The position numbers and the translations under genes are program-made. DNA of 64,000 nucleotides from Pagrus major (lineage: Eukaryota > Chordata > Actinopteri > Spariformes > Sparidae), in assembly GCF_040436345.1 (NCBI RefSeq), contig NC_133230.1:9631297-9695296 (forward strand), written 5' to 3'. The notes under the pieces were generated by a model, which saw only the letters and a list, made by a program, of their open reading frames with translations, did not search any database and was not told the origin of the DNA. Positions 53,766 to 62,700 of the stretch are shown here, piece after piece; position 1 is the stretch's first letter, and the number at the start of each line of letters is the position of its first letter.

Positions 53766-53771
53766 TTTATT
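53766..53771 (-). terminator. otof: Poly(A) signal of otof terminal exon C
   Basis: AATAAA on the minus strand inside TTTGTGAATAAAGTGGC, about 375 nt after the exon C stop. The TTTGTGAATAAAGT context is shared with the signals after exons A and B. More than 100 bp upstream in transcript order is also similar to cassette B (GTGATTTATTGTGA and TTGCTGTTG words). Confidence 0.75.
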
Positions 53772-56700
53772 CACAAATTCAAAAGACAGACAAATACTGC
53801 ACACTGATGAGATCACAATAAATCAGCACAAAGGTGACAGTCTTGCAACAGCAACAGCAACAACCACAATAATTATAATAAATAATAATGATAATAATAA
53901 TTTAAGCAAGATAAAACATCATTGTGAAATAATAACAAATTTTCACCACTACATTGCAGTAATGGATTTTAGCGATTACACGTCAATATGAGAACGAGCT
54001 TGCCGTATTGAGTACTGTAGCAACACTTATAATCCACAACTTGATGGTGTATTCTGTCAAGTGGCAAAACTCTTTCAAGAACACAAGACAAACTTACAAG
54101 TGAAACAATTTCTGTGTGTGTGAAACAGTAAATTCCAGCAGATATCTCAGGCTCCCAACATTTTCTTCACCATGTATCCAGGCATGTTGTAGAGGAAAAG
54201 ACCCAAGATGGCCAGCAGCAGAAGAGCAGTGACAATCTTGATGGTCAGCCACCTGTACTGGTCACATATCAGGTGTTTCGCAGCTTTGAATGGGATGAGG
54301 AACCAGAGGAGGGCGATGTCTGGACGGCTGGTGGAGCACAGAGACAAACAGTGTGTTAGAAATTTTATCGCAAATGAAATATCCACTGGTTCTGTTTCAA
54401 AGTACTTATACCCGATATAATAATCCCCTTTTTTCAAGGGTTAAAAATTGTAAGGACTTTTCTTAGACTCTTCTGTTTTTTTTCATACATTTCTGTTAAT
54501 AAGGGGGATACATTTTGGCCATTTTGATAACAAGGGGGAATATTTTGGTTACTTTGCTAACAAGGGAGATACATTTTTGTTATTTTGCTAACAAGGGGAA
54601 TACATTTTGATTATTTTACTAATAAGGGGGATACATTTTGGCCATTTTGCTAACAAGGGGGATACATTTTGGTTATTTGCTAACAAGGGGGATACATTTT
54701 TGGCCATTTTACTAATAAGGGGGATACATTTTGGCCATTTTGCTAACAAGGGGGATACATTTTGGTTATTTGCTAACAAGGGGGATACATTTTTGGCTAT
54801 TTTGCTAACAAGGGGGATACATTTTGGTTATTTGCTAATACGGGGGACACATTGTTGGCCATTTTGCTAATAAGGGGGATACATTTTTGGCCATTTTACT
54901 AATAAGGGGGATACATTTTGGCCATTTTGCTAACAAGGGGGATACATTTTGGTTATTTGCTAACAAGGGGGATACATTTTTGGCCATTTTACTAATAAGG
55001 GGGATACATTTTGGCCATTTTACTAACAAGGAGGATACAATTTTGTTATTTTGCTAACAAGGGGGATAAATGTTTGTTATTTTGCTAACAAGGGGGATAC
55101 ATTTTGATTATTTTACTAATAAGGGGGATACATTTTGGCCATTTTGCTAACAAGGGGGATACATGTTGGTTATTTGCTAATAAGGGGGGATACATTTTGG
55201 CCATTTTGCTAATAAGGAGGATGCATTTTGGTTATTTTGCTAACAAGAGAGATACATTTTGACCATTTTGCTAACAAGGTGGATACATTTTGGTCACTCT
55301 GCTAGCAAGAGGGGGTGAATTTAAATACAAATAATAAAACATTCCCAAACATACAACACAAACAAGGACATGTATACATAGATAACAGGACTACTGGAAC
55401 TTGGAGGGTTCAGAGGTCAATTTATGCACAAATTTGAAATATCATACATAGACACATAAACACGACAAAACATTGTACAAGCAAGACAATATGAACAGCA
55501 AATTAAAAAAGTGAGATTGTTAGCCAACTACGCTAATAATCTCACTTTTTGTAGTTGTAATTTTAACAGGTGAGCAATGGACAACAAATGAATAAATGAC
55601 ACCACATTTCAAGAAACAAGAAAAAACACTTTGTTACCACTTGAACAGCAGCTATATTTTGAGATTTGTTCACACAATATATCATTAGTAATGCCATTGT
55701 GGTAGTCCTCTTTTAATAACGCACTAGTATGCGTGTGCACAGATATGTAGTTAAGATTAGAAATGTTTGCAGTCCTCACTTTATTCACAAATCAAAAGTC
55801 AATACTGCACACCGGTGAGTTCACAATAAATCAGCACAAAGGTGACAGCCCTGCAACAGCAACAACCACAAGATAAACATAATAAGGCAATGCTTGATGT
55901 TGAGATGATAAGCATTAGTTGTTAGATAATAAGGCCCTTGCAAGTCCTTATCAGATGCTTAATTACATTATTATGTGTAAATAAAATTAATAGCATATCA
56001 TAAACACATTTATTGATAGATTATATAACCTTTATCAACACTAACACACTGTATATGAAACAGTTTACAGACTGTTTAAGAACATTAATTCAAGTCTTAT
56101 TAGTTAACTGTAAATAAATGCATAATAAAGGACTTATTAACCTAGCAAAAATAATACTTAACTGTTAATAAGTAATAGTTGACCACTAATAAATTCATAA
56201 TAAATTATGTATTAATCATAATAAAGCTTAAAAAGCGTAGCAAAGATTTAACAATAAAGTCATAGGCAAGTTTAACTCACCAAATTATAAGAAACTCATA
56301 AGGGTTTAATTAACATTCTTAATCATGATGCTGTTATTAACACCTAATTTAGTCGTATTTAGACAATGATCTTAATAACATCTTACAAGGGCCTTATAAC
56401 CTATTAACAAATGCTCATTACATGCACCTTAATAATAATAAGTATTATCCACAATAGTAATAATAGTATTTATAATAATAACAGTAATAATTTAATTTAC
56501 ATTTCTTTGTGCATAAAATGGTAATCTAGCAGATATCTCAGACCCCCAACATTTTTTTCACCATGTAACCAGGCATGTTGTAGAGGAAAAGACCCAAGAT
56601 GGCCAGCAGCAGGAGCACGGTGACGATCTTGATGGTCAGCCACCTGTACTGGTCACATATCAGGTGTTTTGCAGCTTTGAACGGGATGAGGAACCAGAGG

Positions 56701-59700: not shown

Positions 59701-62700
59701 TCGTTTCGCCCTTCACCCGCTGGGCTTCTCTCTGCTTCCTCTCCTGTCAGAAGGTGCAGCTCTGCTTCCACTTTTCCCTAAAAGCACAACAAAAACATGT
59801 GGTTTTAAGCTATTGTCCAGCTTTTTATACATTCAGCCATGACCAACATTTTGGGTTACTTCTAACTTTCGCTTACCGTGAGTTCAAACTCGTCCTCTTC
59901 ATTTCTGGCCACAAATGGCCACCAGCCTTTGATCCTCTTCTGTTTGAAGATGGAGACCATGGGCATCTCTCCTTCATTTGTCACCATGTCAATGCTGCAC
60001 TGCTTGGCAGTCTTCGCACCACGTGGGAAACGGTTCAGGTCCAGCTCAATTGCACCTATAAAGAGACATTATTGAACATGATGGAATGAAAGGAAGTAGT
60101 GCATGGACAGACCCGTATCTTCACGTAAATAGGTCTGATGAGTTCGATTGCAAGATGTACCAAAAGCCAAATGTTAACATAAATGTACGTTCGCTGCACC
60201 TAAGAAGTCATCTGCGGAGAAATGGTCAGCGTCCCACACTTGCAGATTGAGACGAGCTGGGATCTTGTATTCAGTCTCATCCCAGGCAAACATGGACTCT
60301 TTTTTCGAGATGACGATCTTCTCCTCAGCCATGAGGTAGTCGAAGGGGTAGACGAAGCGCCAGTTGAAATTGCCCTCCCCAGTGATGGAGTGGTAGTGGA
60401 CATCTGTGTCCTGCTTGTCCTCCTGCTGCCCCTTCAACCAGCTGAAAAGATGAAGGATAGATTCACAATATTTAACAAAGCATTGTTTTAAATAATTTGT
60501 TGTTTTCTTCACCATCCAAATCATATAAAGCTTGTAAGTACCCTCGAACAAATATGTCACTGGATTTCTCGCCGGTGAAGATATCATCATCCTCCAGAAC
60601 GACCTCATCTGTGTTCCAGACGATCACCCTCAGTTCAAACCTGCACACAAGATTTGATTAAACATTCATTTCAATAAAAGCCCTCCTCTGGCTGTTGGAT
60701 TGGCTAAAACTGTATATAGTGTATACAGAGGACATACTTCTTTGGTTTCCTTGGTGAAATGTCAAGGGCGGGGCCAGGTGCAGTCATATCCTTCGGGAAC
60801 ATATCCACCCACATCTCAATTCTCCCCTAAAAGCAATTGAACACAAGGAGATGTTGGTCTAAAAGTATGCAAACAAACCTTTACAGTATAAAGAGTCTTG
60901 ATTAAAAGGCAGGAATAGAGCCAGCATGAGCACACTGAAGGACATACTTGTTCAATTCCTGGTTTGTCAGGGTGGAGCAGTGGTCTGGTTTCCACGTGTT
61001 CTGGGACGAGTTTGCAGCCGACCTTTGGGATTTCTTCCCAGTGCTTCAACACGGTCAGAGCCAGATGTTCCTCCGTCTGCTTCTTCAAGCCTGAAGAAAA
61101 CCAATTGGTTAACACTCGTTTTTAGTCACACGCTCCAGAGAAATATCAAATAAGTACAGTGCAGTACAGAGGTTTCTTACTCCATGGTAGATAATCAGTT
61201 AAATTCAGTGGGAGAAACAAATGGGTTTGAGTGAAATGAACGTTTACCATTTTCATCCTCTATCTCAGTGTGTGCCATGAAGACACGGTTCTCCACCTTC
61301 ACTCTTCCTCCAGGGCCGTAGTGAGGCCCATCGAGCTTGCCATCCTTACACAGCTTAGCCAGGATTTGTGTGGGTTTCATTGGGTCCCGCCACACATTGT
61401 AACCATGGCTACAGGAAAGCGCAAAAGCAGTTACAATTATATGAAAAGCAATGCTTTATATAAATCTATGATAACCTACAATTAGGAATTGTGATATTTA
61501 GCCGTTGATTCTTACATGGCGTAGTTACTCGTCACGCCACATGTGGCTCTGTGTTTGCTGTAGAAACGGTTCTCGAGGTCAAGTTTGGTTTCTCCAATCA
61601 GATCATCGGTTCCCACCAGGTCCCAGTCATAAATTGAAACGGTGAGTGTGGAATCCATTGGGAATGTGGCCTCCACGTCAAAGGATCTGATAAGATGAGA
61701 AATACATAATTTGTCTGGTTTTCATGTATATTAAAACAGGCAGTAACACTTGGATCATATAGTAAAGATACTTTGATCAGAAATAAAGAATTTCTACTTA
61801 CTTGCCGAACAAAGGGTTCAGCTGTTTTGAGATGTAGTTCTCTTTGTCCTTGAGCTCTGTCTTTCCCAGTCTGATTGCAATGTATGGATCGGCTTTTCCA
61901 TTAATGTCAGCTGGATGCAGATCAGTTGCCTACCAAAAAATACATTAAGAATGAAATGAATAATCTCATCATCTGAGACATCGACAACAGTATTATCATA
62001 GACTGTAGTAAAGTGCAGAATATGTACCCTGATAACGTAGATGCGGACGAGGACATTAATGGGGTCGTTGTGAGGAATGTTCTGAAACATTCCCATGTTG
62101 GAGTCGAAGCTCATGTCTCTGGACATGTCATCTGACACTTTGTACATGCACAGTGAGCCCTAAAGGGAAATAGTTAGACAAAAACATGATGAATGTTTAA
62201 TTTACTATAAATTATTGTTTATGGTCATTATAAAGCATTGCCGAGCAACCTGTGATGAGCTCCTTATGAGAATAACTTAAACATTGTGTTTTTACTTTGA
62301 ATTTTCCAACAATTCTGTCCTCATCCGTCACGTTTTGGTCGTCATCATCGCCGCCTTTCCCCCTGAACAGGTTAAAACTGTGGAGCCAGTCCTCAAAGTT
62401 GTCAAAATCACTCTCCAGTTCCTTTGGGTACACCTACACACACAAATGATCAACACACCAATTCAGTTTCGGATGATATGTTTTCCTCAGAATGTGGCAC
62501 TTTTATCCGGGATGACACTTCACACTGTATGAGAATTGCTTCGAGCTGTAGCATAGATGCCGAGTCCCGTACCTTCAGCTCATCCAGCTTCGGCTTCTTC
62601 TTCTCAAACGGATCTGGCATCTTCTTCTTCTTGCCTTTTCCTCTCTTGGTGCCTTTTACAGGAGAGTCATCAGGTTTGATATCTGAGTACAGGTTAGTGG

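Follow-up and report, generated by a model that had tools for sequence, protein, structure and literature searches.

Three tandem terminal exons at the 3' end of a Pagrus major otoferlin gene, probably copies of one cochlear-type membrane anchor exon

The 3' end of an otoferlin gene of Pagrus major, which lies on the minus strand of a 64,000-nucleotide (nt) stretch of DNA (the window; C16:9631297-9695296, in a genome of 785.9 Mb and 25 contigs), carries three tandem exons, A, B and C, each encoding a complete C-terminal membrane anchor followed by a stop codon. Otoferlin senses calcium and is required for hearing. We interpret these exons as a tandem array of three alternative last exons derived from one cochlear-type anchor exon, a reading to which we would assign a probability of about two-thirds. 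Direct reading of the minus strand from 53.7 to 60.2 kb gave the following elements (positions are those of the window):

59677-59777, minus strand: last shared coding exon, GKVEAELHL...EPLEKP plus the AA of an Asn codon, read directly; aligns with the end of the otoferlin chain 9qe2_A in the PDB
58341-58521, minus strand: terminal exon A, membrane anchor, 59 amino acids plus stop (sequence, Pfam)
56538-56718, minus strand: terminal exon B, 59 amino acids plus stop (sequence, Pfam); 57/59 residues as in C
54147-54327, minus strand: terminal exon C, 59 amino acids plus stop (sequence, Pfam)
56719-56737, minus strand: acceptor and pyrimidine tract of B, 19 nt identical to those of C; the detected B-C homology starts here
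54328-54346, minus strand: acceptor and pyrimidine tract of C, 19 nt identical to those of B

The donor at 59677 reads AA|GTATGA. Exons A, B and C are 181 nt each and follow a CAG acceptor, and their first base is the C that completes the Asn codon (AA|C). Each remains open for 59 codons up to a TGA, with no internal stop. A preliminary description had claimed three phase-matched 181-nt terminal exons with no early stop, and its coordinates proved exact for all three. The coding DNA of B and C is 94% identical, and that of A is 79-82% identical to the others. The 20 nt upstream of each CAG acceptor are 75-85% pyrimidine; the tract of A is the richest in T (15/20, against 8 and 9 for B and C), and because A also lies closest to the donor it would be expected to be the default choice. 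By eye, the triplet TGC occurs within 20 nt before the B and C acceptors; it is common by chance, and we claim no tissue-specific splice motif.

Judged from the encoded protein, the gene is otoferlin, as had been proposed. A 228-residue translation of the last exons together with A matched otoferlin in the PDB (9qe2_A) with an expect (E) value of 4.7e-97, ahead of dysferlin (3e-74) and myoferlin (4.8e-49); no FER1L6 chain was among the PDB matches, so that this protein lay outside the comparison. All three tails exceeded the Pfam Ferlin_C cut-off of 29.4 bits (A, 34.8; B, 31.5; C, 31.0), and they have a single C-terminal transmembrane helix (19-residue hydropathy 2.57-2.84, residues 28-46).

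When the whole genome was searched with the DNA of exon C (181 nt), three candidates were obtained and all three were scored; all lie on C16, including B (E = 2.9e-73) and A (E = 1.2e-44), resemblances that greatly exceed chance, and a fourth copy was not found. The protein tail of A (E up to 10) gave 14 matches: three on C16, three on C22, one at each of the other ferlin loci on C9, C10, C15, C20 and C6 (E from 8e-8 to 0.0016), and three more, with E values of 1.2-5.5 and two of them containing internal stops, that were taken as noise. Thus, of the seven ferlin loci that this query found, only the two otoferlins, in the window and on C22, yielded more than one tail exon. Local tblastn searches (E up to 5) with A, B, C and the three C22 tails (P1, P2 and P3, see below) covered all of the window together with 18 kb of C22 and 3.7 kb of C16 outside the window; within the window they detected no additional tail exon. 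Numerous short local matches (E values of 0.02-5) were regarded as noise; of those in the window, the one with P3 at 6823-6882 (plus strand) had the lowest E value, 0.028.

The strongest competitor to the array of three usable exons holds that only one or two of them are in use, the remainder being a relic that has not yet decayed. It is an appreciable possibility, although clearly the less likely one. B and C are nearly redundant as proteins, and when 11 neutral changes were simulated only 32% of the copies gained a stop, so that intactness alone is weak proof for B versus C. However, of the 11 differences between B and C, 9 are silent and 2 replacing (p = 7e-5), and only 2 of 4000 neutral runs (0.0005) produced two or fewer amino-acid changes. 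With 32 neutral changes, 62% of simulated copies gained a stop and 0.5% kept to 12 or fewer amino-acid changes, as A and C have done. The identity of the B and C acceptors over 19 nt also speaks against decay. For the pairs involving A, the ratio of replacing to silent substitution rates (dN/dS) was 0.21 (A-B) and 0.25 (A-C).

Changes between B and C were then assigned to branches using A as reference, and P2 where A was undecided. Both residue differences are Ala to Val on the B side, at codons 34 and 59, where P2 agrees with A and C. On this basis the B branch carries seven changes, two of them replacing (p = 0.0095), and the C branch three, all silent (p = 0.013), with one unassigned. P2 agrees with B at silent sites 93 and 174; if P2 rather than A decides these two sites and they are moved to C, the B branch retains 2/5 replacing changes (p = 0.087), which suits a relic, and the C branch has 0/5 (p = 0.0007). 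These substitution patterns are consistent with purifying selection acting on the set of exons. Constraint on the B/C pair is well supported and constraint on B alone likely, if not firm, and the three-exon array is probably functional.

In mammals, exon 48 of OTOF encodes the cochlear tail (TMD1) and exon 47 the brain tail (TMD2), the tail comprising 60 residues of a 1997-residue protein (PMC10394277). That mammalian OTOF has two alternative last exons, as stated in the preliminary description, agrees with that article and with PMC7768390. The second Pagrus otoferlin, at C22:18132053-18138610, provides a comparison within the same genome. The proteins encoded by its last shared exons are 93%, 82% and 76% identical to those of the window gene, and it has three tail exons that are phase-matched, because all enter with a T after a shared exon ending in AA:

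C22:18133691: tail exon P1
C22:18135494: tail exon P2
C22:18138425: tail exon P3 (span C22:18138424-18138610, plus strand)

We built a maximum-likelihood tree of 12 tails, a comparison that rests on 59 columns and has mammalian otoferlin tails outside its set. The five otoferlin tails A, B, C, P1 and P2 came together (support 100/99), as did A, B and C (98/99) and, within these, B and C (99/93), with P2 as the next relative (80/80). Identities over 59 residues were 45 for A-B, 47 for A-C, 57 for B-C and 40 for P1-P2; A, B and C share 41, 38 and 40 residues with P2, and 33, 32 and 33 with P1. In approximately unbiased (AU) tests, trees that broke up the trio by joining P2 to A alone or to B+C alone were rejected (p = 0.011), and those placing either A or B+C with P1 were weakly rejected (p = 0.044 in each case). 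Residue 30 of 60, which we equated by arithmetic with Ile1967 of the human protein (1997 residues with a 60-residue tail; PMC10394277), is Ile in A, B, C and P2, Leu in P1 and Ala in P3. Between residues 30 and 50, P1 has 10 Leu and A, B, C and P2 have 6-8, which agrees with P1 being brain-like, as does exon order; the longest Leu run is 2 in A, 4 in B and C, and 4 in P1. With P1 as query, whole-genome tblastn gave no matches on C16 other than A, B and C (54-55% identity), and no brain-like exon.

Because A, B and C form one clade that is closest to P2, one anchor type seems to have been triplicated. P2 is likely the counterpart of the mammalian cochlear exon 48, and an exon-48-like anchor is probably present in three copies as A, B and C; from the tree, their link to P2, and so an exon-48 origin, is favoured at moderate strength. 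An alternative would make A the counterpart of brain exon 47 and B/C that of exon 48, i.e., the mammalian pair plus an extra copy. The exon order, with A proximal like exon 47 and P1, would agree with this, as would the presence of two types at the protein level, A and B/C. However, A is as far from P1 as C is, and nearer to P2; a clade of A with P1 is weakly rejected, the A+B+C clade is strongly supported, and A, B and C alike have Ile at residue 30. We therefore regard the mammalian-pair arrangement as unlikely.

These relationships change how the array should be described. The preliminary description had spoken of a choice of three membrane anchors: three intact exons are indeed present, but three distinct anchors are not, since B and C differ at only 2/59 residues and the exons encode about two anchor types. 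Nor do the exons look like an expanded set built on the mammalian pair, as it had proposed, with A, B and C forming one clade beside the exon-48-like P2 and no exon-47-like exon found on the contig. The array would be better described as two anchor types, probably both cochlear in origin, with three 3' ends.

The third C22 exon, P3, is highly divergent. It encodes a 61-residue tail (Ferlin_C, 41.8 bits) that has 18-20/59 residues in common with P2 and P1; it was matched by the A tail with an E value of 0.75 and by P1 with 6.5e-5. Its closest tail is that of the ferlin locus on C9 (23/59). The position of P3 in the tree is unsafe, because its branch is long, and joining it to the otoferlin tails was not rejected (AU p = 0.093). 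An AATAAA was seen by eye about 110 nt 3' of its stop, and a search of 18 kb with the last shared exons as single query found no further ferlin exons around it. P3 may represent either a relic or a third anchor that has changed strongly. Convergent with the C22 otoferlin is a coiled-coil-like gene (C22:18138600-18143000, minus strand) that by eye resembles drc1, which we take to be a neighbour of human OTOF.

Each exon of the window array is followed by a poly(A) signal:

57990-57995, minus strand: unit A, extra AATAAA in a proximal position, about 346 nt 3' of the stop codon
57493-57506, minus strand: unit A, poly(A)-signal block TTTGTGAATAAAGT, about 840 nt 3' of the stop codon
55778-55791, minus strand: unit B, poly(A)-signal block, about 750 nt 3' of the stop codon
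53764-53777, minus strand: unit C, poly(A)-signal block, about 375 nt 3' of the stop codon

On the minus strand of the window the 14-mer TTTGTGAATAAAGT has three occurrences, one 3' of each exon, and on the plus strand it has none; about 0.001 occurrences are expected. Every exon therefore has sequence signals for its own acceptor, stop and poly(A) site, and the donor-like sites 3' of the stops are only moderate (best 7/9), a combination that favours alternative last exons. The exons had been called mutually exclusive, a wording that goes beyond what DNA can establish; a separate poly(A) signal for each exon fits alternative last exons. The only inverted repeat with arms of at least 40 nt between 53.0 and 60.5 kb (shorter arms were not searched) lies inside the 3' untranslated region (3'UTR) of B, and thus lends no support to competing RNA structures between the acceptors.

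A might instead be a cassette exon with a stop, to which B or C is then joined as untranslated sequence. Mammalian exon 47 behaves in this way, its mRNA carrying exon 48 untranslated (PMC10394277). Against this for A, two AATAAA signals lie 3' of the exon, and the best donor-like site within 700 nt (CAG|GTGACG, about 294 nt after the A stop) scores 7/9 by a crude count. A cassette arrangement seems a little less probable still than the mammalian-pair arrangement.

Under the favoured reading of alternative last exons, splicing would join the shared donor at 59677 to one of the three exons and be coupled to cleavage at the poly(A) site of the unit chosen, and the products would be otoferlins whose tail anchor is of type A or of type B/C. 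Because the anchors of B and C are practically the same, transcripts ending in these two exons would differ mainly in the 3'UTR. We infer the splicing of all three exons, its coupling to polyadenylation and any difference between tissues from these signals.

Several points weigh against this interpretation. Exon use is argued from DNA sequence. Between A and B/C, the poly(A) similarity amounts to a block of 15-18 nt; in free local alignment, 8 and 3 of 300 shuffles scored as high, and the motif AATAAA is frequent, with 67 occurrences on the minus strand of the window. A branch point of the YTNAY type was not found at the usual distance for A, and the signal of constraint on the B branch weakens, as described above, when two silent sites are reassigned. 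With respect to origin, placing A+B+C as sister to P1 instead of P2 was not rejected (AU p = 0.17). Moreover, P1 lacks the run of more than nine Leu given for the mammalian brain tail (PMC10394277), so that the label "exon 47" for P1 is one that we infer.

The extent of homology between the units suggests how the array was formed. Homology between B and C starts 19 nt ahead of the acceptor, extends 37 nt past the stop and resumes at the end of the 3'UTR, whereas the homology of A with B and C comprises the exon and the poly(A)-signal block TTTGTGAATAAAGT. The relevant elements are:

55750-55871, minus strand: 3'UTR end of unit B, 86% identical to that of C
53736-53863, minus strand: 3'UTR end of unit C, 86% identical to that of B
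54488-55314, no strand assigned: 31-nt minisatellite, 26.6 copies, between the B poly(A) signal and exon C

In the stretch of the B 3'UTR that does not align to that of C, an inverted repeat at 55908-56418 (44-nt arms, 423-nt spacer) looks like a small mobile-element insertion.

Synonymous distances were 0.26 for B-C, 0.52 for A-C, 0.71 for A-B and 0.82 for A-P2, and that between the two otoferlin genes was 1.19 (bootstrap 0.76-2.31; 167 shared codons). These values, whose ranges overlap widely, fit a split between A and B/C after the gene duplication and a later split between B and C. One cochlear-type (exon-48-like) anchor exon was probably duplicated, along with its poly(A) signal and 3'UTR, once the two otoferlins had separated, a first duplication giving A and the ancestor of B and C, and a later one giving B and C. 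At informative sites, A agrees with C and not B seven times (four of these clustering at 93-102) and with B and not C twice. Most of the seven are explained by changes on the B branch; because P2 agrees with B at sites 93 and 174, a small A-C gene conversion tract is possible, but we do not claim one.

Duplication by the assembly, of a haplotype or a collapsed repeat, which had been named as a way to refute the array, might be suspected of similar tandem copies adjoining a minisatellite, but is very improbable, because B and C are 94% identical in the coding exon, with aligned flanks that are only short and different surroundings, A is more diverged, the interval 53700-60200 contains no N, and the array occupies a single contiguous place on C16.

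Tandem-duplicated 3' exons are a known kind of arrangement, to which the window array belongs. The window gene resembles mammalian OTOF in being the same gene, with terminal exons for a single-anchor tail of 60 residues and homologous anchors that could be chosen between; it differs in having three exons, apparently all of the exon-48 kind, with their own poly(A) signals, and no brain-type exon was found. The C22 paralogue likewise has three phase-matched tandem tail exons, but there P1 is brain-like, P2 cochlear-like and P3 very divergent, whereas the window exons are of one kind, three times over. Among human events of tandem duplicated exon substitution, 77 of 236 are C-terminal, and TPM1, lev-11 and Tm1 have three 3' exons each (PMC9741552). 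As here, homologous tandem 3' exons then provide alternative C-termini, but in the present case a membrane tail anchor would be exchanged and the array represents a triplication; OTOF does not occur in the main text of that article. Clusters of duplicated terminal exons are also found in Drosophila pip (PMC9013439). Sturgeon Otof variants differ in exons 6-10, the first inter-C2 stretch, one variant being kept only in electroreceptors, and tails are not mentioned in the section of that account covered here (PMC13069148). Among the titles and abstract openings listed from the open-licence full-text literature, we found no report of tandem tail exons in fish otoferlin, and automated genome annotation may already list such isoforms. 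Pattern scans of viral contigs (22 and 47 matches) and genome contigs (32 matches), in a collection without relatives of this genome, found no relative.

The surroundings of the window gene are as follows. A PWWP match (47.7 bits, 12188-12493, plus strand) and an EB1 match (69.3 bits, mapre-like) are above cut-off; an amidohydrolase match (18.9 bits, 33319-33753, plus strand; dpysl5-like by eye) and a CH match (25.2 bits, just short) are below it, the CH and EB1 matches lying at 47179-47667 and 49072-49419 (plus strand). The human counterparts of the PWWP, amidohydrolase and CH/EB1 genes presumably lie near OTOF at 2p23. Transfer RNA genes were seen at 52042-52114 (plus), 53180-53252 (plus) and 40097-40168 (minus), the first two with equal scores of 58.5 bits, 1.1 kb apart and adjoining the otoferlin 3' end.

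Since a brain-like exon was not found on the window contig and remains on C22, tail isoforms would be expected to be divided between the two otoferlins. More speculatively, the window gene may have dropped the brain type and expanded the hair-cell type into an array, in which the exon chosen would determine both the anchor and the 3'UTR according to the class of hair cell (ear or lateral line), while the paralogue kept brain and ear types and added the altered P3. If so, the choice of tail, beyond the choice of gene alone, would specialise hair-cell synapses. The two mammalian anchors distribute differently in HEK293 cells, and the otoferlin anchor is medically relevant because hearing is impaired when Ile1967 of the cochlear tail is deleted (PMC10394277). 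A natural array of three anchor exons in one gene, with another set in its paralogue, makes it possible to compare which residues of the anchor can vary, and whether the choice of anchor sorts otoferlin between hair-cell types. As zebrafish otofa and otofb are expressed differently (PMC7140416, PMC13069148), the question of tail choice is one that RNA could address.

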